Assembly: GCA_026419015.1 (NCBI GenBank)
Contig: JAOAAF010000014.1
Span: forward strand, 1 to 38,880
Direction: 5' to 3'
From: Spirochaetota bacterium
GTDB taxonomy: Bacteria; Spirochaetota; UBA4802; JAGODF01
Length of the DNA: 38,880 nt
Shown: piece after piece, positions 24,801-33,568 of the stretch
Position numbering within the stretch: position 1 is the stretch's first letter
Layout: each line of letters begins with the position of its first letter
Notes under the pieces: model-generated
What the model saw: the letters and a program-made list of their open reading frames with translations, nothing else
Told to the model about the DNA's origin: nothing
Databases searched by the model: none
Translations under genes and position numbers: made by a program

Positions 24801-25724
24801 TTATTTAAAGGCATACATTACCATTGAGCTTGTTGTGCAAAAATTTCCAAAGTGTATTTTGCTTATATAATGATATGCGGCAATTCTCATCCATTTGCGG
24901 TAATCAAGAAAGGATTTGAAATCGCCTTGGGATTTTCGCAACTTGGGCCACAGGCCAAATTCCACAGGATGAAATGTTTTAATGCGAGTAAAACCTACCG
25001 CAGAAAGAAGATTGGCAAGAGTGCGTTTTGGGAAATACGAAAGATGCCCGGGCATATAATATGCATACCGTTCGCCCAACAGTTTTGCCTGCAATCCTTC
25101 CATATTTGCGGTCTGTATTACCAGCAATCCGCCTTTTTGAAGAAGCCGATAGCATTCCTTAATCGCAAAAACTGGATTGGGAAGATGCTCTAACACTTCG
25201 ATCATGGTGATGACAAGAAAAGAGTCGTGAGGGAAAGAGTGGTTCTCAAGCGTTCCATGGTGGATGCGATTCCCGAACTTCTTTTTTGCGTATAAACCCG
25301 CATATTCCGACGGTTCAATTCCAGCTACTTCAAAGTATTTTGATGCGGCGCCAAGGAATCCACCAAATGCACAACCAATGTCGAGCAGATTTCCTCCACG
25401 GATGTATTTGCGAATAATGTTGAGGCGCGCTTCCCACACGTGCTGAAAATAACGCTCCTTTGACCGTTCATCGCAATATGAATATTCAGCATTGCCTGTA
25501 AAATATTCTTTTGTATAGAAGGATTGTATAAATTCATCGCGGAATCGCGGATTCATAAACATAAAACCGCAGTCGGCACAGCGATCAACAGTAAAAGGAA
25601 TGCTCCATCGCTTAATCGTATGGGCAGGATAAATGATATGCGAACTGCACAGCGGGCAATCATTTCTTCGGTTTTCAAAAATATTGGCATTGGATTGTAA
25701 CATGGATGTAGTGTCCGCAATCAT
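24801..25724 (-). CDS. Zinc-ribbon SAM-dependent methyltransferase
   Basis: This is a 307-residue class I methyltransferase. Residues 20-55 carry a four-cysteine zinc ribbon (CPLC ... CADCG). The Rossmann-fold domain follows, with SAM motif I LLDIGCAFGGFLG, the acidic end of strand 2 in VAGIEPSEY, and motif IV-like VITMIEVLEHLPNP. Proteins of this build are often found in gene sets for polysaccharide or small-molecule modification; the substrate is not predictable. ATG 25724 has AAAGGA 7 bases upstream and is preferred over a start at 25823 inside the ligase gene. It begins 23 bases after the RimK-like gene and closes the protease/7TM/ligase operon, so it may modify the ligase product (inference). 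Confidence 0.85.
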   Translation of the reverse strand: MIADTTSMLQSNANIFENRRNDCPLCSSHIIYPAHTIKRWSIPFTVDRCADCGFMFMNPRFRDEFIQSFYTKEYFTGNAEYSYCDERSKERYFQHVWEARLNIIRKYIRGGNLLDIGCAFGGFLGAASKYFEVAGIEPSEYAGLYAKKKFGNRIHHGTLENHSFPHDSFLVITMIEVLEHLPNPVFAIKECYRLLQKGGLLVIQTANMEGLQAKLLGERYAYYMPGHLSYFPKRTLANLLSAVGFTRIKTFHPVEFGLWPKLRKSQGDFKSFLDYRKWMRIAAYHYISKIHFGNFCTTSSMVMYAFK

Positions 25725-25747
25725 TATCGCATCCTTTCGAGAGAATT

Positions 25748-26686
25748 TTATACAAGGGATTGCAAAATAGCCAAAGCTTTCTGAATTCGCTCTTCTGGCA
25801 AAAGGCCATTGGGATTTTCGCATTCGAATGCTTTCAAACGCTTTCGAAGGCCTGCCATGTTCGCTAGTTGAATGGAAAGGCCTGGCCGTGCGTTGAGTTC
25901 TAAAAGAAGCGGCCCTTTTTCGTTGTCCAATGCGATATCTGCCCCAAAAAAGCCGAGGTGAGAGATTTCATACCCTACAGCAGCAAGGTGCAATATCTTA
26001 TTCCAAAAGGGGATCGCAATCCCTGCTAAATTTCTCCCCGTATCGGGATGAATAGTAACGAGGGTTGACCCCATTACGCCATTGGCAGTTTTCCCCGTGT
26101 TGATATCGATGCCAACCCCAATCCCACCCTGGTGGAGGTTAGCGCGACCCCCTGATTTTTTTGTTGGAAGCCGAAGCATCGCCATTGTTGGAAAGCCTTT
26201 AAATACAATAACCCGCACGTCTGGCACTCCACGATATGTGATGTGTTGTAATGCATTGTGTGTTTGAATTTTGTATTGAATGATTGCGCGATCGGGATAT
26301 CCGTCTATTGAATAAAAACCGCTTAAGATGTGGGAAATATGGTATCGAAGTGAATTAATATCTTCAATTTTGCCATCAGCTCGAATGAAAGAGCCATTGC
26401 AACGATCGACAATAACGATGATGCCATTTCCCATTGCGCCTTTCGCTGGCTTTATGACAAAAGATTTTAAATTTGAAACGATTTTCGAAAGCTGCTTTAA
26501 TGATCCAAATGAATCGAATATCGCATAGTTTTCTGGCACAGGAATCCGATAGAGCGAAGCATGTTGAAAGGTGATAATTTTATCATCCGCTTTTGGGTAA
26601 TCGCTTCTTTTGTTGTAGGGGAGCATGAATAACCCTATGCGTGCATTCATTCCTAAAACTCCGCATTGTGAAAGCTTACGAAACAT
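25748..26686 (-). CDS. RimK-related ATP-grasp amide ligase (alpha-L-glutamate ligase-like)
   Basis: This 312-residue ATP-grasp protein belongs to the family annotated as alpha-L-glutamate ligase-like, related to RimK. Such enzymes form amide bonds via acyl-phosphates, often adding glutamate to peptides or small molecules. Visible elements are the nucleotide-binding strand SFVIKPAKGAMGNGIIVI, the RVIVFKGFPTMAMLRLP strand, the substrate-binding SGGRANLHQGGIGVG, and the metal-binding LLLELNARPGLS with Glu and Asn intact. ATG 26686 shares a base with the stop of the upstream membrane-protein gene (TGATG), with AAGGAG 5 bases before it. The gene order RimB-like protease, inactive transglutaminase-7TM, ligase is a known conserved set without a demonstrated biochemical role. 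The family is secure; the acceptor is unknown. Confidence 0.9.
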   Translation of the reverse strand: MFRKLSQCGVLGMNARIGLFMLPYNKRSDYPKADDKIITFQHASLYRIPVPENYAIFDSFGSLKQLSKIVSNLKSFVIKPAKGAMGNGIIVIVDRCNGSFIRADGKIEDINSLRYHISHILSGFYSIDGYPDRAIIQYKIQTHNALQHITYRGVPDVRVIVFKGFPTMAMLRLPTKKSGGRANLHQGGIGVGIDINTGKTANGVMGSTLVTIHPDTGRNLAGIAIPFWNKILHLAAVGYEISHLGFFGADIALDNEKGPLLLELNARPGLSIQLANMAGLRKRLKAFECENPNGLLPEERIQKALAILQSLV

Positions 26687-28278
26687 CACGACTCCTTTTT
26701 CAAAAATTCTCGAAAGCGAATTAACTCAGTGAGGCGATACCCTGTGTATTTGCCCATCAAAATAAAAATAGATATTAGACACAATAAAATTTCTGGATGC
26801 GTAAAAACAATCGTTTGTAACATGGGAATGGAAAAAAGAAAATATGAAATTGTTGCAATAATCAAAGTTCCCATCAGCGAGTATAGGGTGTTTTGTAAGC
26901 CTTCTTCGTCGAGCATAAGGCCAAAGCGCTCAATGAAGATTGTAGTGATGACAATTGGGAAAAGTGCGGGAGTAAATTCTTTTACGAATTTCATCTTGTA
27001 ATTGATAATTGCAAAAATGCATAACAAGAGCACCACCACCGTTAATATGATAGAAAGGTGAGGGACTGCTAAAAGCTGCATTTTTTTTAGCATATATCGC
27101 AGAGAAAACCCTACAGCGACAATCGCAGTAAAAAATGCAATGCCAAACAAAAGCCCAGTTTCATGGAAGAAAAGCGCTAACAGCACAGGCATAAAAATAC
27201 CAAATGTTTTTAAGCCAATAATGTTTCGAAAAATCACAAGCACTACAGCACCAAATGGAATGAGCACGAGGATTTTGAAAACGGATTGCACATTTAATGG
27301 AAGGGAATACAGCGAATACGCCAAAGCCCAGTGGGATTTTTGAAGTTGCTTGCGGTATTCCTGAACAGCAAATTGTGTGGAGTCGATTTGATGAGCCGAA
27401 ATTTTGAGCCGTGCGAAATCGTCGTTTATAATGGCGTTTATATCTTCGATGTTCCAGAATAATGGGACATATTCATCGGTGAGGTATGCGAAATTTCCAT
27501 AATTTGTGCATAAAGGTATCCACTTCCCTTCTAAATTTATTTCATTCCAGTATGAAAGTTCATATCTGCCTTTTGTATCGATCTTTTTCTCGGGGCGTAA
27601 AATAATGCCACCGACAATGCGCGAAGGGATTTTTAGGCGACGAGCCAAAATGTTAAACAATCTCGCTTTTCCCAAAGAATCCGCTTCGAGATGATCTACA
27701 ATTTCATGGATATTTTTCCATTGGCGTTTATTGTTTGTAAGCACTTCTTCGTACACGAAGTAAAAAATCTCTTTCACAGATTTTAGGGGATTGGTGCTTT
27801 CCACAAAAATCTCTTTCTCGATTTTTTTTATCGATTGCAAATCCTTTGCATCGATTTCATCCACGACGAGATATTCCTTCATCAGAGGATCACTTTTCGA
27901 TGGGATGACAAGCGAAGGAATAGCATATTGTTTTTCTTTTATTTCAACAATAGTGCGATAAAATGGCGTTCGTTTTTCAGTTATCTTTCCACGCCAGTAT
28001 CCGCGAATGCCAAATGGGGTTTTTTCGATCGTAAGCGACATCCCTTTGCCATCGTATTGTGAGCTTTTAATACTAATGCGATCTGACTGGCGTGGGATTG
28101 GGAAGCCTATTTTCCTTGTACTCGTTGATGGATGGACGCGAACTGAAATTTCAATGTTCCAGATGTTTCTTGCGAATTTTGGAACAAACGGCACTCCGAT
28201 GACAAGCGTTTTATATAATATCAAACTAATTGCAACCAGTATAAAAAATCCTGCAGAGATCCAATGGTAAGGTTTCAT
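26686..28278 (-). CDS. Inactive transglutaminase domain fused to seven-helix membrane domain
   Basis: This is a 530-residue membrane protein. A signal-anchor helix (about 8-26) is followed by an extracytoplasmic domain to about residue 320. That domain retains the transglutaminase-core pattern LGKARLFNILARRLKIPSRI and YELSYWNEINLEGKWIP, but the catalytic Cys is Ala and the catalytic His is replaced by Tyr. It is therefore expected to bind rather than cleave or cross-link. About seven hydrophobic helices fill residues 335-520. This matches the family named inactive transglutaminase fused to 7 transmembrane helices, found next to RimK-like ligases. It probably recognises a peptide-like molecule outside the cytoplasmic membrane. 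It starts one base after the protease gene and overlaps the ligase start. Confidence 0.9.
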   Translation of the reverse strand: MKPYHWISAGFFILVAISLILYKTLVIGVPFVPKFARNIWNIEISVRVHPSTSTRKIGFPIPRQSDRISIKSSQYDGKGMSLTIEKTPFGIRGYWRGKITEKRTPFYRTIVEIKEKQYAIPSLVIPSKSDPLMKEYLVVDEIDAKDLQSIKKIEKEIFVESTNPLKSVKEIFYFVYEEVLTNNKRQWKNIHEIVDHLEADSLGKARLFNILARRLKIPSRIVGGIILRPEKKIDTKGRYELSYWNEINLEGKWIPLCTNYGNFAYLTDEYVPLFWNIEDINAIINDDFARLKISAHQIDSTQFAVQEYRKQLQKSHWALAYSLYSLPLNVQSVFKILVLIPFGAVVLVIFRNIIGLKTFGIFMPVLLALFFHETGLLFGIAFFTAIVAVGFSLRYMLKKMQLLAVPHLSIILTVVVLLLCIFAIINYKMKFVKEFTPALFPIVITTIFIERFGLMLDEEGLQNTLYSLMGTLIIATISYFLFSIPMLQTIVFTHPEILLCLISIFILMGKYTGYRLTELIRFREFLKKES

Positions 28279-28279
28279 G

Positions 28280-28777
28280 TTATTTATCCAAAAGATGGGA
28301 ATGCGAAACGTCTACAACAAATTTACCCCGCAAAAGATTTCTCCCCACTAAGAAGGGATACTCCATATTGCTTCGATCGTTGAGCGTGATGTACACTTCG
28401 CGCACTTCTTTCCCAAGTGCAACTTTTGTTTTTATCACATAGCGGCGTGCCGAATAACCGCCAGGGCTTTTTATTGTTTTTATTTTCGCCACCTTCGCTT
28501 TTAACTTCACTTTTTTCTTTTGCGCGTCATGGGTGGTAAATTCGATGTATTTGGTGCCATCTAATTCAATTTCTTTTTGATTAAATGCATGGAGGGAACA
28601 ATTGCGCGCACCTGTATCGATGCGAGCTTCCAGTTTAAGATTAAATTCTGGAAGCTCTACCCATTCCACGCGTCCAATTGTGATTTTTGTATGGTTCGCA
28701 ATTACCAAATTGATTACGGCAAGTGGGAAAAATGAGATGATAGACAGCAAAAACATTGTTATACGCCGGATGTTCAT
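28280..28777 (-). CDS. RimB-like retropepsin-fold protease (ATP-dependent zinc protease family name)
   Basis: This 165-residue protein has an N-terminal signal or anchor segment (MFLLSIISFFPLAVINLVIA) and a small retropepsin-type domain. The catalytic motif is DTGARNCSLHA and the second conserved motif is RSNMEYPFLVGRNLL. The family is labelled zinc protease in databases, but its fold and DTGA motif fit an aspartyl protease, and a relative (RimB) trims glutamate tails added by RimK. Here it is exported, so it would act outside the cytoplasm. ATG 28777 lacks a clear ribosome-binding site; ATG 28756 is possible. It is first in the operon and ends one base before the transglutaminase-like membrane protein. 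Confidence 0.88.
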   Translation of the reverse strand: MNIRRITMFLLSIISFFPLAVINLVIANHTKITIGRVEWVELPEFNLKLEARIDTGARNCSLHAFNQKEIELDGTKYIEFTTHDAQKKKVKLKAKVAKIKTIKSPGGYSARRYVIKTKVALGKEVREVYITLNDRSNMEYPFLVGRNLLRGKFVVDVSHSHLLDK

Positions 28778-29160
28778 AGAAATTTTTTTACTATTGCAAT
28801 AATGTTGTTAACACCACACAAAGGTATTCGCTTTGCGTTAATAAAAGCGTTAAATTATTATCATAGACGGTATTATTGAAAATTTCTTTTTAATTTCTTT
28901 TATCGTATATGGCATGTCAAGCACAAGTCGATTGATGAGTAGGGAGTTGGGGTAAAAATAGTGTACAAAGGGATGCTTTTTTATTTACAGAATTTCATTT
29001 AAAAAGGAAATTGTCTCTTATAATGGATATGAAGACTTCGTAAAACGAATTTTTGCGTGAAGGATAAACGAAAGAAAAGAGATTTTAGAAGTTTGCCCAC
29101 AATGGAATGTGAATTTTTTTAATTCATTCAATTTTGGTGATCCGTTTGGGGCGAGATATT
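28778..29160. other. Divergent intergenic region without a gene
   Basis: These 383 AT-rich bases separate the protease operon (minus) from the UPF0316 gene (plus). I see no open frame with a ribosome-binding site. A TATAAT at 29019-29024 on the plus strand lacks a well-placed -35. On the minus strand a perfect TTGACA (plus-strand 28915-28920) has no good -10 at 16-18 bases. Both may be parts of promoters for the two divergent units. Confidence 0.5.
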
Positions 29161-29724
29161 ATGATTATCACATCGAGTGAGCTAATGAGCATGGCTTTCA
29201 TCTTTTTTGCGCGGATCGTCGATGTATCGTTAGGGACAATCCGTATAATTCTCGTTTCTCGAGGGAATAGGCTTTTAGCACCGATTATTGGATTTTTAGA
29301 AGTTTTTATTTGGATTACGGTAATTAGCGCAGCGATTCGCTCTCTCCACACATTTCTCGGATATGTCGTATATGCTGCTGGTTTCGCGATGGGCAATTAC
29401 GTGGGGATGCTTTTGGAAACGAAAATTGGAATTGGCTATCAGAATCTGCGCATCATCACAAGCAAGGTGGTGAGTGCGCTTCCCCTGGTGTTGCGGGAAG
29501 AAGGATATGGGGTAACAACGGTTGAAGGCCAAGGGATGAATGGCCCTGTCAATATCATTTACACTGTTGTTCCGAAAAAAAAGACCCAAAAGGTAATTGA
29601 AATTGTAAAGATGTTTGAACCGCGAGCATTTATCACAATCGATGATGTCCGATCGCATCATGCGGGTTTTATTGAGCAGAAGTCCATCTTCCGTTCAATA
29701 AGTTCCTTTTTTCAAAAAAAGTGA
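29161..29724 (+). CDS. UPF0316 family membrane protein (DUF5698/DUF2179)
   Basis: This is a 187-residue protein with three to four N-terminal helices. It carries the family pattern FFARIVDVSLGTIRIILVSRG, then LGFLEVFIWI-like (IIGFLEVFIWITVISAAI) and YVVYAAGFAMGNYVGMLLE. A C-terminal soluble DUF2179-like domain of about 70 residues follows (LREEGYGVTTVEGQGMNGPV, then VPKKKTQKVIEIV). The function is not established. ATG 29161 is preferred to a TTG at 29134 because the helix starts naturally there. It ends 14 bases before the citrate synthase start and is probably co-transcribed with it, although no functional link is known. Confidence 0.88.
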   Translation: MIITSSELMSMAFIFFARIVDVSLGTIRIILVSRGNRLLAPIIGFLEVFIWITVISAAIRSLHTFLGYVVYAAGFAMGNYVGMLLETKIGIGYQNLRIITSKVVSALPLVLREEGYGVTTVEGQGMNGPVNIIYTVVPKKKTQKVIEIVKMFEPRAFITIDDVRSHHAGFIEQKSIFRSISSFFQKK

Positions 29725-29738
29725 ACAGGAGGTACGAA

Positions 29739-31091
29739 ATGGAAAAGGAATTTTTCTCTCAATTGGTGCAGCTAATAAAAAAATACGATGAAATTCCTGA
29801 ACATATCATTCGCGAGCGAGATGTCAAGGTTGGGCTTCGCAATCCCGATGGAACGGGGGTTGTCGTTGGAATCACAAATAAAGGAAGTGTGATTGGTTAC
29901 AAAAAAGAGCTCGTCGACAAGGAAAAAAATCTCTATGAGGTTAAACCAGTCGATGGCAAATTGTATTACTGCGGATACGATGTAGAAGATTTGGTGCGCG
30001 ATTATGAACAAAAAGGGCGCTTTGGTTTTGAAGAAGTTATTTTTCTTTTGCTCACAAGCGTATTGCCGAAAGTCGATGAACTCGAATCGTTTAAAGAAGA
30101 ATTAGCAAAGCGCAGAAGCCTTACCAAAGCGGAGCGCTCAGTGATTATGGAAAGCGGTGAGAACTTTAACCAGATGTATGCGCTTCACTCAGCAATCTCG
30201 CATTTGAGCCGCTGCGATAATAATCCCGACTCAACAGAGATTGCCGATGTGACGAATCAATGCCTTAATTTAATCGCGAAGTTTCCCACGATTGTGGCTG
30301 CGAATTATAATGTGTCAAAATTTATGCGTGGGGGGGATTTGTTGCTTATTCGGCCTAAACACGAATTGAGCTATGCGGAAAATTTTCTCTATATGCTCAG
30401 TGGGCAAATGCCCGATTCGTACGAAGCGCATCTTTTCGATACCTGTCTTATATTACATGCAGAACATGGTGGGGGCAACAATTCAACGTTTGCTGTTCGC
30501 GTTGTTTCATCCAGCGGCGCAAATACCTATATGGCGATTGCGGCGGGAATTGCTTCGCTCAGTGGTCACCTGCACGGGGGAGCAAACGAGGCAGTTAATA
30601 TTATGATGAAGGATTTGAAAAAGAACGTTGACGATTGGGGAAGTTATAAAAAGATTCGCGCTTATTTGTTGAAAGTGCTTGAAGGCAAGGCAGGAAATAA
30701 AAGCGGGAAAATATATGGCTTCGGTCACGCAGTGTATACGAGATCCGATCCGAGAGCGATTATTCTAAAAAGGCATGCTGAGGATCTTGCAAAACGAAAA
30801 GGCGCATATGAGGAATATCTTCTCTACGATGCAGTAGAAAAGATTGCCGTGGAATTGCTTTCGGAAAAATCCAAAAAAATAATCTCCGCAAATGTAGATT
30901 ATTATTCGGGATTCATTTACGAACTTTTAGGAATACCAAGGGAACTTTTTACACCAATCTTTGCAATGGCGCGCGTCGCGGGTTGGTCAGCGCATCGGAT
31001 TGAACAACTCATACAGAATAAGATTATGCGGCCGGCATACATCAATCCATTTTTAGAGCCAAAACCATATGTGGAACTTGAAAAACGATAA
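29739..31091 (+). CDS. gltA: Citrate synthase family protein
   Basis: This is a 450-residue citrate/2-methylcitrate synthase-type enzyme, condensing oxaloacetate with an acyl-CoA. The N-terminal 60 residues precede YCGYDVEDLV, and the catalytic core holds HAEHGGGNNSTF, the active-site His in LHGGANEAV, His in GFGHAVYTRSDPRA, and Asp in VDYYSGFIYELLGIP. AGGAGG with 5 bases of spacing fixes the start at ATG 29739; the earlier GTG at 29721 overlaps the upstream gene. It is of the long form found in several anaerobes. Substrate choice (acetyl-CoA or propionyl-CoA) cannot be read by eye. The stop lies 3 bases from the stop of a convergent methyltransferase gene. Confidence 0.93.
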   Translation: MEKEFFSQLVQLIKKYDEIPEHIIRERDVKVGLRNPDGTGVVVGITNKGSVIGYKKELVDKEKNLYEVKPVDGKLYYCGYDVEDLVRDYEQKGRFGFEEVIFLLLTSVLPKVDELESFKEELAKRRSLTKAERSVIMESGENFNQMYALHSAISHLSRCDNNPDSTEIADVTNQCLNLIAKFPTIVAANYNVSKFMRGGDLLLIRPKHELSYAENFLYMLSGQMPDSYEAHLFDTCLILHAEHGGGNNSTFAVRVVSSSGANTYMAIAAGIASLSGHLHGGANEAVNIMMKDLKKNVDDWGSYKKIRAYLLKVLEGKAGNKSGKIYGFGHAVYTRSDPRAIILKRHAEDLAKRKGAYEEYLLYDAVEKIAVELLSEKSKKIISANVDYYSGFIYELLGIPRELFTPIFAMARVAGWSAHRIEQLIQNKIMRPAYINPFLEPKPYVELEKR

Positions 31092-31094
31092 TCG

Positions 31095-31745
31095 TCAACG
31101 TTTTGCCCAGAAATACCAATGGGAGATTCGTTGGCTCATATCGCCGGGGATGGTTCGTTCCATAATCCCGTATGCAAAAGCTTGGTAAGAGGAAAGTGCA
31201 CTTTTTAATTCATCTTCATCGTAGAACGAGACGATTGTGCCTTTAAGATCCTCGAGGTTTGTTTGCCACACGTTGTTCCCGAGATGCTTCCCCCGCCGTG
31301 CATAGGTATCGCGAAAAGAGCGAAGCGTTCCAATATGCCAGCCTCCTTTTTTTAATACGCGTTGTATTTCGGAAATCATGCATGAAAGGTACTGTTTTTC
31401 CGAATAGTGCAAAGATCCCCAACTGATGACAAGATCGAACGATGAATCGCGAAAAGGAAGCATAGTGTTTTGTGCGACGACAAATTGTGCTGAAATTTTT
31501 TTTGAAGAATTTAAAATAGCTTCCATGCTGTAATCGCTTCCAATGACTACATCGAATCCCATTTCCTTTAGGGTAATCACATGCCTTCCGCTTCCACAAC
31601 CTAAATCAAGAGCTTGAAGATGTTTTCCTTTGTTTTGTTTTAGAAATAGGGTTGTCAGTCTCACCATGTTTTCATCGGGGTAAGCAAGTTGTGATTTTTC
31701 TTTTTGGTAATGGCAATCCCATTGCCGTTGGCCAGAGCGAACCAT
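31095..31745 (-). CDS. Class I SAM-dependent methyltransferase
   Basis: This is a 216-residue methyltransferase of the Methyltransf_11 kind. SAM motif I is ALDLGCGSGRHVITL, the acidic residue after strand 2 lies in GSDYSME, motif II reads LPFRDSSFDLVISWGSLHY, and post-II is RVLKKGGWHIGTLRS. The substrate is unknown. ATG 31745 follows AAGG by about 7 bases and lies 5 bases after the stop of the ATP-grasp gene, so the two are coupled; a start at 31793 would overlap that gene. The operon order XRE-cupin, ATP-grasp, methyltransferase suggests a regulated small biosynthetic or modification pathway in which a ligase product is methylated (inference). Confidence 0.87.
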   Translation of the reverse strand: MVRSGQRQWDCHYQKEKSQLAYPDENMVRLTTLFLKQNKGKHLQALDLGCGSGRHVITLKEMGFDVVIGSDYSMEAILNSSKKISAQFVVAQNTMLPFRDSSFDLVISWGSLHYSEKQYLSCMISEIQRVLKKGGWHIGTLRSFRDTYARRGKHLGNNVWQTNLEDLKGTIVSFYDEDELKSALSSYQAFAYGIMERTIPGDMSQRISHWYFWAKR

Positions 31746-31750
31746 TTTTC

Positions 31751-32968
31751 TTACCTTATATCGATTGCAATTTTTTCTATTGCGGCATCGCATGCCGCAA
31801 TGGCTTCCTTCGTTGTTTTCCCTTCAGCGATGACCACGCCAATTCTGTCGTGATTTGTGGATGGGGGGGTGATGGATGAACCGATGTCCTTAAAGATTCT
31901 GTAGAAAAGTAAACCTGGTATTTCTTCGCATGTAATTGGCGTGAATGCGAACAATTGGCCGCTATTTCCTGTGATGTATTTAACCACAACGCTTTTATTT
32001 CCAAAGTGAGGTTGTGGGATTTTGAATTCTTGACCGGTGATTGCTTTTATTGTTTCTGCAATGAGATTGTATCCCGTTCTATGGGGCACAATGAATTCGG
32101 GGATAAACTCCCCTCCAAATTCGGGTACCGCTTCGATGAGAAAAATACCTTTTGTTGGATGTATTTTTATTTCCATAATAAGGGGCGAGGTGGCGATTTC
32201 GAATGCGGTGGCAATTTCCTGGCCAATGGCTGATATTTCTTTTGAAAGAGAAAAGTATTGGGAAGGTGAGATGTGCATGATGTCCACGAAGTATGGAGGT
32301 GGAGAAATCGCTTTATCGGTAATTTCAACTAAATGGAATTTTCCATTGTGAATGAGACCTGAAACGATGATTTCGTCGCCTTCGATGAATTCTTCGACCA
32401 TTAGGGGAACATTTTTTTTGGTGGCGAGCAATGTATCTAATTCCTTTAGGTCCGCAACCAGTTGAACGCCTTTTTTCGCATGCCCTTCAGTTGGTTTGAT
32501 GACCACCGGAAAACGAAGTGTAGATGGAAAACGAAATTTTTTTCTTTCAGGAATAATAAAAAATCGAGGTGATGGAATCTTGTTTTTTCGAAAGATGTTT
32601 TTCATTCGATCTTTATATAAAAAATCGTCCACCCTTCGAAATGGCAAAAGAGGACAATTGAATTGGTCCGCTAAGAATGCGGCACTTTTGATAGCACTGC
32701 CGTACGATTTTGAAAGTATGCCGCAAATGTCGCCAATGAGCGCAAACTCCTTTAATTTTACGTATATTTCGTTGTAATTTTCAATCGATTCGATGATGCG
32801 AATATCGCAGGAGAGAAAACCTGGCGCGGTATGGTTTTGATCAACCCCAATAGTTCGAAACCCGAGGCGCTTGGCTTCTTGTATAAGGGGAATTTGGTTA
32901 ATGCCTGCACCGATGGAGACCAGAAATTTTGGGAGAGCAGATTTGTTTTTCTTCCACAATTGTGGCAT
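31751..32968 (-). CDS. ATP-grasp carboxylate-amine ligase-like enzyme
   Basis: This is a 405-residue ATP-grasp enzyme with a pre-ATP-grasp Rossmann half (SIGAGINQIPLIQEAKRLGF, then TIGVDQNHTAPGF). It also has the strand FPVVIKPTEGHAKKGVQLV, the hinge LMVEEFIEGDEIIVSG, and the metal-binding end FLIEAVPEFGGEF. In most members that last motif reads E-x-N-x-R; here Asn and Arg are replaced by Val and Glu, as in some poorly studied subfamilies. A C-terminal domain of about 100 residues follows. Relatives join a carboxylate to an amine or thiol, but the substrate is unknown. The start at ATG 32968 lacks a clear ribosome-binding site. It sits between the XRE-cupin gene (18-base gap) and the methyltransferase (5-base gap) in one operon. 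Confidence 0.87.
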   Translation of the reverse strand: MPQLWKKNKSALPKFLVSIGAGINQIPLIQEAKRLGFRTIGVDQNHTAPGFLSCDIRIIESIENYNEIYVKLKEFALIGDICGILSKSYGSAIKSAAFLADQFNCPLLPFRRVDDFLYKDRMKNIFRKNKIPSPRFFIIPERKKFRFPSTLRFPVVIKPTEGHAKKGVQLVADLKELDTLLATKKNVPLMVEEFIEGDEIIVSGLIHNGKFHLVEITDKAISPPPYFVDIMHISPSQYFSLSKEISAIGQEIATAFEIATSPLIMEIKIHPTKGIFLIEAVPEFGGEFIPEFIVPHRTGYNLIAETIKAITGQEFKIPQPHFGNKSVVVKYITGNSGQLFAFTPITCEEIPGLLFYRIFKDIGSSITPPSTNHDRIGVVIAEGKTTKEAIAACDAAIEKIAIDIR

Positions 32969-32986: not shown

Positions 32987-33568
32987 CTATGAGGCGTAAA
33001 TCACCGCAACGATGCGCGCTGGTGTTTCATCTGCGCTTGAAACGCGATGGGGAACTGTTGAATCGTAATAGATGCTATCCCCCGGTTCGAGAATGTCAGT
33101 GTAATTGCCAAGTTGAATTTCGACTCTTCCTTCCAAGACAAAGAGAAATTCTTCTCCCTCATGGCTGTAAGGTAATCCTTTTTTTGCACCTGGCTCGAGG
33201 GTTACAAGAAATGGTTCCATCTTTCGGTTTATTTTGTCGGGAGCGAGCGACTCATACGAATATCCATAACGCACCCCTTCTTTTGAAGCTACCCGAGAAG
33301 TGGGTTGCCGTTCGTGCTTTCGTACAATCGTAAATGGTGCTGTTTTGGACTGGTCAAAGAACTTGCCAATCTCTAATCCAAGTCCATGGGCAATTTTTAT
33401 AAGAGCACCTAAAGGCGGCGAAATGAGATGGTTTTCAATCTGGGAGATGAACGCGGGAGAAAAACCTGTTTTCTCTGCTAAGTCTTGGAGAGTAAGTCCT
33501 CGCGATTCTCTGAATTGTTTGATCTTTTCTCCCACTTTTACTTCGCCGGTGATCATAAAAAATGCCAT
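32987..33568 (-). CDS. XRE-family regulator with C-terminal cupin domain
   Basis: This is a 193-residue transcription factor. Residues 10-70 form an XRE helix-turn-helix (IKQFRESRGLTLQDLAEKTG, FSPAFISQIENHLISPP). Residues 100-190 form a cupin sensor with MEPFLVTLEPGAKKGLPYSHEGEEFLFVLEGRVEI and LEPGDSIYYDSTVPHRV. Such regulators sense a small ligand with the cupin and usually control the adjacent operon. It is first in the minus-strand operon, and its upstream region holds the inverted repeat shared with the divergent SRPBCC gene. ATG 33568 has AAGGA only 3 bases upstream; ATG 33556 is a slightly shorter alternative. The ligand is unknown. Confidence 0.92.
   Translation of the reverse strand: MAFFMITGEVKVGEKIKQFRESRGLTLQDLAEKTGFSPAFISQIENHLISPPLGALIKIAHGLGLEIGKFFDQSKTAPFTIVRKHERQPTSRVASKEGVRYGYSYESLAPDKINRKMEPFLVTLEPGAKKGLPYSHEGEEFLFVLEGRVEIQLGNYTDILEPGDSIYYDSTVPHRVSSADETPARIVAVIYAS

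Follow-up and report, generated by a model that had tools for sequence, protein, structure and literature searches.

Do four adjoining genes on one strand of a spirochaete contig form a single pathway, or does the last of them only happen to stand behind the other three? This question is raised by a locus in the genome of a Spirochaetota bacterium (assembly GCA_026419015.1; 2.98 Mb, 217 contigs, 89% complete), in which three FlaA-family matches, indicative of Spirochaetota, were found. The window analyzed here comprises 38,880 nucleotides of contig JAOAAF010000014.1. The four genes, named after the assignments discussed below, are the following:

28280..28777, minus strand: rloA, exported retropepsin-like protease (PF05618) with catalytic D54 in a DTGA motif
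26686..28278, minus strand: rloB, inactive transglutaminase with seven membrane helices (PF14400 and PF14402); triad positions Ser201/Ser242/Cys257
25748..26686 (ATG start), minus strand: rloC, ATP-grasp ligase (PF14397 and TIGR02291)
24801..25724 (ATG start), minus strand: MT, zinc-ribbon class I methyltransferase (PF13489), located after rloC as the last gene

The spacing of +1, -1, and +23 bases described in the original prediction is real. For rloC, an alternative GTG start at 26689 is possible, and residues of RloC are numbered here from this codon. The MT frame contains a further ATG at 25823, but this codon lies inside rloC; the start at 25724 is preceded by AAAGGA and agrees with the relatives. 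A scan of the region for promoters and terminators gave counts equal to those of shuffled sequence, with no signal above chance. The base composition of the rlo genes is the same as in the remaining window, and a recent foreign origin is not indicated.

The protein families were assigned by Pfam and NCBIfam profile searches. The first three genes adjoin each other in the order and on the strand known for the rloABC operon, which was named in 2025 in Pseudomonas aeruginosa (Lormand et al.; PMC12239564). Because both the gene order and the families match, these genes are, as judged by sequence comparison, a divergent rloABC operon in a spirochaete family. The locus shares with that of P. aeruginosa the three families with their order and strand, an exported DTGA protease with corresponding Arg residues, an inactive transglutaminase with seven helices, and an ATP-grasp ligase. 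Identity to the Pseudomonas proteins is about 26-33% for RloA and RloB and 44-49% for RloC.

The trio had been described as a conserved set without a proven reaction. The set is indeed conserved, but the second part of this description is outdated, given the published cleavage of poly-glutamate by RloA and the published genetic phenotype (PMC12239564). In P. aeruginosa, three redundant secreted RloA proteases are required for growth at low osmolarity, and in vitro RloA cuts runs of eight or ten glutamates, not of six or fewer (PMC12239564). The rloA1-3 triple mutant is rescued by the loss of rloB or of rloC; this rescue, as well as the low-osmolarity and envelope phenotype, is known for P. aeruginosa only (PMC12239564). 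In a separate screen in Shewanella vesiculosa, disruption of an inactive transglutaminase with seven membrane helices altered vesicle production (PMC12096838).

The RloA protein of the window matches PF05618. The DTGA motif expected in it was found in alignments, with D54 as the catalytic residue, and the expected export signal was recovered as a hydrophobic N-terminus at residues 8-26, a feature read from hydropathy only. Residues R112 and R135 belong to the same motifs as R114 and R137 of P. aeruginosa, which are needed for poly-glutamate cleavage; this correspondence was established by alignment to Pseudomonas loci that did not include the PA14 sequence itself. The scores of RloA against the NCBIfam models for RloA1-3 are 65-72 bits, below the cut-offs of 210-280. 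These models, like the one for RloB, are narrow ("exception" or "equivalog") and were made for the named proteins.

The protease scores higher, at 92.8 bits, against the RimB model, which favors reading the trio as the cytoplasmic RimB-RimK ribosome-modification system, where a related retropepsin-like protease and an ATP-grasp ligase are likewise combined. Nevertheless, this identity is extremely improbable: every protease model, RimB included, stays under its cut-off; the ligase passes TIGR02291 (352.7 bits, cut-off 314.2) and fails rimK_fam (43.7 bits, cut-off 143.4); RloB, which has no counterpart in the RimB-RimK system, sits between the protease and the ligase; and the protease carries an N-terminal hydrophobic segment. 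RloC was also matched by PF14397, and its residues K80, D251, E264, and N266 are invariant in seven aligned sequences, in agreement with the predicted retention of the ATP and metal residues.

RloB matches both PF14400 and PF14402 (233.5 bits for the latter); its score against the NCBIfam RloB model, 238 bits, does not reach the cut-off of 900. The active-site positions were located by alignment with L017 and L019, relatives in which Cys and His are retained. The Cys-His-Asp triad of an active transglutaminase is not present, the three positions being Ser201, Ser242, and Cys257. Thus, the earlier claim of an inactive domain is correct, but the replacements given for it, Ala for Cys and Tyr for His, are not. 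In the named RloB proteins, compared with L026, the Cys site is occupied by Thr, Ser, Pro, Ala, and other residues, and the His site mostly by Glu. Since all three positions are variable among the named proteins, inactivity is a feature of rlo at large and not specific to the window. In the AlphaFold model of RloB (mean pLDDT 83), the soluble domain is close to the transglutaminase-like protein 3isr. Structure comparison matched this domain alone and gave no solved relative for the membrane part, and a sequence search of the PDB with RloB gave no useful match.

A triad that is lost in a fold that is kept, with the soluble domain still resembling 3isr, together with Pfam families named for seven helices with an inactive transglutaminase, could also be expected of a receptor. 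Such a protein would sense a periplasmic peptide by its dead transglutaminase domain and signal inward to regulate RloC, with no export involved. We consider this role unlikely, though deserving of attention. RloB is without a signalling domain, its membrane part is without a solved relative, and the rescue of the protease mutant by loss of rloB as by loss of rloC (PMC12239564) fits a shared production line equally well or better.

In the production line that we prefer to the receptor, RloC would join amino acids, probably glutamate, in an ATP-driven reaction in the cytoplasm, giving an acidic peptide or protein tag. This product would be carried or displayed across the inner membrane by RloB, with binding as the only function left to the transglutaminase domain, and RloA would trim the product in the periplasm, the balance between these activities presumably setting envelope integrity. 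The published work on rloABC in P. aeruginosa is in line with the earlier proposal of extracytoplasmic trimming of a peptide-like product.

A variant locus with the gene order rloB-rloC-TPR protein was observed at L017 (166-4485), L019 (2181-6711), and L020 (5905-9599). PF05618 proteins are absent from the genomes G057, G140, and G148, where a gene for a TPR protein follows rloB and rloC. RloB of all three genomes keeps the catalytic His and has Cys instead of Asp as the third residue. The catalytic Cys is also kept in G057 and G148, where the region is complete; in L020, which is cut by a contig end, the Cys is not visible. The transglutaminase domain may be active in this variant, and the pattern suggests that RloB itself may cleave in place of the missing RloA, but all three genomes belong to a single lineage, too narrow a basis for a conclusion.

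RloB is uncommon in this phylum, with 11 of 393 genomes encoding it. All four genomes from the family to which the window belongs, herein referred to as f1, encode RloB, as does only one of the 42 others in the order. In the RloB and RloC trees, the f1 proteins cluster with those of two other members of the phylum and of Bdellovibrionota, apart from Pseudomonas; rlo, described as mainly proteobacterial, is now placed in a spirochaete family. G015, from the same order, has a separate rlo copy that clusters with proteobacteria.

According to the P. aeruginosa study, most organisms with rloABC also carry RimB-RimK (PMC12239564). Each f1 genome encodes one PF05618 protein, and no RimK-family protein above the cut-off was found in the f1 genomes, that of the window included; three of these four genomes are less than 90% complete, so these absences are uncertain. 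The family differs from P. aeruginosa in the single protease, in the lack of a RimK above the cut-off, and in the presence of MT next after the trio. With a single retropepsin and no such RimK, the role of RloA in f1 would escape the redundancy of the P. aeruginosa type.

Two further observations concern related loci. PF05618 and RimK-family matches were found within one frame at G015:C65:329-1657 and G185:C274:35401-36729 (L200, L201, L204); these frames, of 487 and 472 aa, look like a RimB-RimK fusion. In G179 (L021, 7899-9267), short remnants of both rloC and rloB represent an apparently decaying rlo locus, and this genome is without a PF05618 protein.

The fourth gene, MT, encodes the predicted zinc ribbon, with a CPLC...CADC pattern; across 42 relatives, Cys23, Cys49, and Cys52 never vary, and Cys26 is kept in at least 90%. 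MT was found after rloC in all four f1 genomes, belonging to three genera, at distances of at most 45 bases; in two of these genomes, the genes overlap by 4 bases. A lack of linkage between MT and the core trio in every related genome had been named in advance as the outcome that would speak against a common pathway; the linkage was found in 4/4 f1 genomes. Outside f1, MT was not found next to the trio, either in the other rlo members of the phylum or at the 79 informative loci (more than 1 kb of downstream sequence) among the 80 named rlo loci, which are the closest RloC matches, mostly from Pseudomonas, with rarer lineages under-sampled. Thus, the description of MT as an uncommon addition holds for the named loci and fails within f1, where the gene is fixed.

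The linkage of MT to rloC says little about function, because f1 keeps the gene order around MT generally: the order of the genes beyond MT is largely kept as well, and the junction is no better conserved than its surroundings. A conserved gene downstream of MT was also considered as a fourth part of the system and rejected, the downstream genes belonging to different families in different lineages.

The distribution of MT extends far beyond rlo. It is present in 38 of the 42 other genomes of the order, and in many more of the phylum, as a single strong match over nearly its whole length, and it is single-copy across the order with or without rlo. In the relatives without rlo, MT is the third gene in the order ATPg2-MT2-MT, frequently with 4-base overlaps; examples are L132 (6106-8890), L136 (6154-8953), and L164 (6729-9413), among others. 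A same-strand ATPg2 just upstream of MT, with an MT2-sized gap between the two, was found in 23 of the 36 genomes of the order having both genes and in 18 of 32 other genomes from the phylum. Only MT2 (29 of 49 loci) and ATPg2 (25 of 49) recur phylum-wide as neighbors of MT, all others being lineage-local. The corresponding genes of the window and those lying near them are the following:

32987..33568, minus strand: HTH-cupin regulator, upstream of ATPg2
31751..32968, minus strand: ATPg2, ATP-grasp protein resembling L-amino-acid ligases (PF13535 and PF18603)
31095..31754, minus strand: MT2, second class I methyltransferase; a longer frame begins at 31793
29721..31091, plus strand: citrate synthase gene, in the block between MT2 and MT
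29134..29724, plus strand: DUF5698/DUF2179 gene, in the same block

The MT of the window has its full length and is an orthologue of the third gene in ATPg2-MT2-MT, so that the counterpart of this operon in the window is 31095-32968 together with 24801-25724. By ancestry, as traced through these orthologues, MT is the third gene of ATPg2-MT2-MT, a claim of common descent and not of an intact operon. MT is not a part of rlo by origin, because it is kept across the order without rlo, with ATPg2 and MT2 as the recurrent partners.

As a by-product of interest, this ligase and two-methyltransferase operon appears to be widespread in the phylum and uncharacterised; a literature search gave no description of it. 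The closest solved relatives of ATPg2, yet distant ones, are the L-amino-acid ligase BL00235 (3vot; profile match with E 2.6e-26) and the ATP-grasp protein 4dim (E 5.1e-29). Family and gene order point to a ligase that would make a small product, with methylation as the next step.

Both ATPg2 and MT2 are kept in f1 (4/4 genomes each). In the window, these two genes are adjacent and MT lies about 6 kb away (6.0-6.2 kb in G000 and G001), so the three are not contiguous. Between MT2 and MT are the citrate synthase and DUF5698 genes, on the opposite strand, and rloABC. The arrangement in G001 is that of the window, and G003 agrees up to its contig ends; in G002, each half lies on a contig of its own, and other genes follow MT2. 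The HTH-cupin regulator also adjoins ATPg2 in G001 and G003 and is upstream of it in G002. We infer that a block bearing rloABC came between MT2 and MT in the ancestor of f1, breaking ATPg2-MT2-MT. Arrival of the block is the simplest history, and a move of MT is the alternative. In several other lineages, MT is likewise found apart from ATPg2-MT2 with all three genes retained.

Taken together, the locus is probably a divergent rloABC operon, in which RloC ligates, RloB delivers, and RloA trims, followed by a methyltransferase from the split ATPg2-MT2-MT operon that still serves its old partners. MT would now share the rlo transcript and, while serving ATPg2-MT2, would most likely methylate the small product made by ATPg2. 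Two findings count against this explanation. Recruitment into rlo would likewise account for MT staying behind rloC across three genera, and in several other families MT is found without ATPg2 or MT2 nearby, in some cases alone, so the tie to these genes is not absolute.

Recruitment in f1 is the model of the original prediction, in which the product of RloC is methylated by MT in the cytoplasm and then read or trimmed outside by RloB and RloA. The close spacing in all four f1 genomes, overlapping in two, and the absence of any promoter or terminator signal above chance are as this model would have them, but we consider it distinctly unlikely, and slightly less credible than the receptor role of RloB. 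MT predates its association with rlo and is retained by relatives without rlo; its recurrent partners ATPg2 and MT2 are both still in f1; the gene order beyond MT is kept in f1 just as the junction is; and the rlo system of Pseudomonas functions without MT (PMC12239564). Moreover, MT evolves at its usual rate in f1: identity between the f1 proteins and the outside orthologues is 51-54%, compared with 50.5% among the outside orthologues themselves, and the same pattern holds for MT2 and ATPg2.

The claim that MT is an added part of the trio's pathway is not supported: MT is present in single copy without rlo, and its conserved neighbors there are an ATP-grasp ligase other than RloC and a second methyltransferase. 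What looks like a pathway of four genes probably reflects no more than where these genes happen to lie. The case of MT corrects a tempting guess of function from adjacency, the odd neighbor being explained by an older split operon. A merger of rloABC and ATPg2-MT2-MT in f1, by which rlo would control MT, both products would be made together, and RloB and RloA would handle the methylated product, is less credible still, and we regard it as highly unlikely. In the preferred reading, MT keeps its own ligase and second methyltransferase as partners.

The structure model of MT is confident (94.8). It has the class I SAM fold in common with 1vlm and with the sugar C-methyltransferases MtmC and KijD1, the latter two ranking first among the listed matches by query-normalised TM-score (0.54-0.57). 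The structural matches have 14-22% identity and cover the common SAM domain only; assignment of a substrate from structure was rejected, as the matches are only generic ones to this domain.

A longer ATP-grasp paralogue of ATPg2, with frames of about 720-780 aa, was also observed (for example, at G000:C204:6362-7537). It is widespread in the phylum and accounts for the weaker matches in most of the genomes listed for ATPg2.
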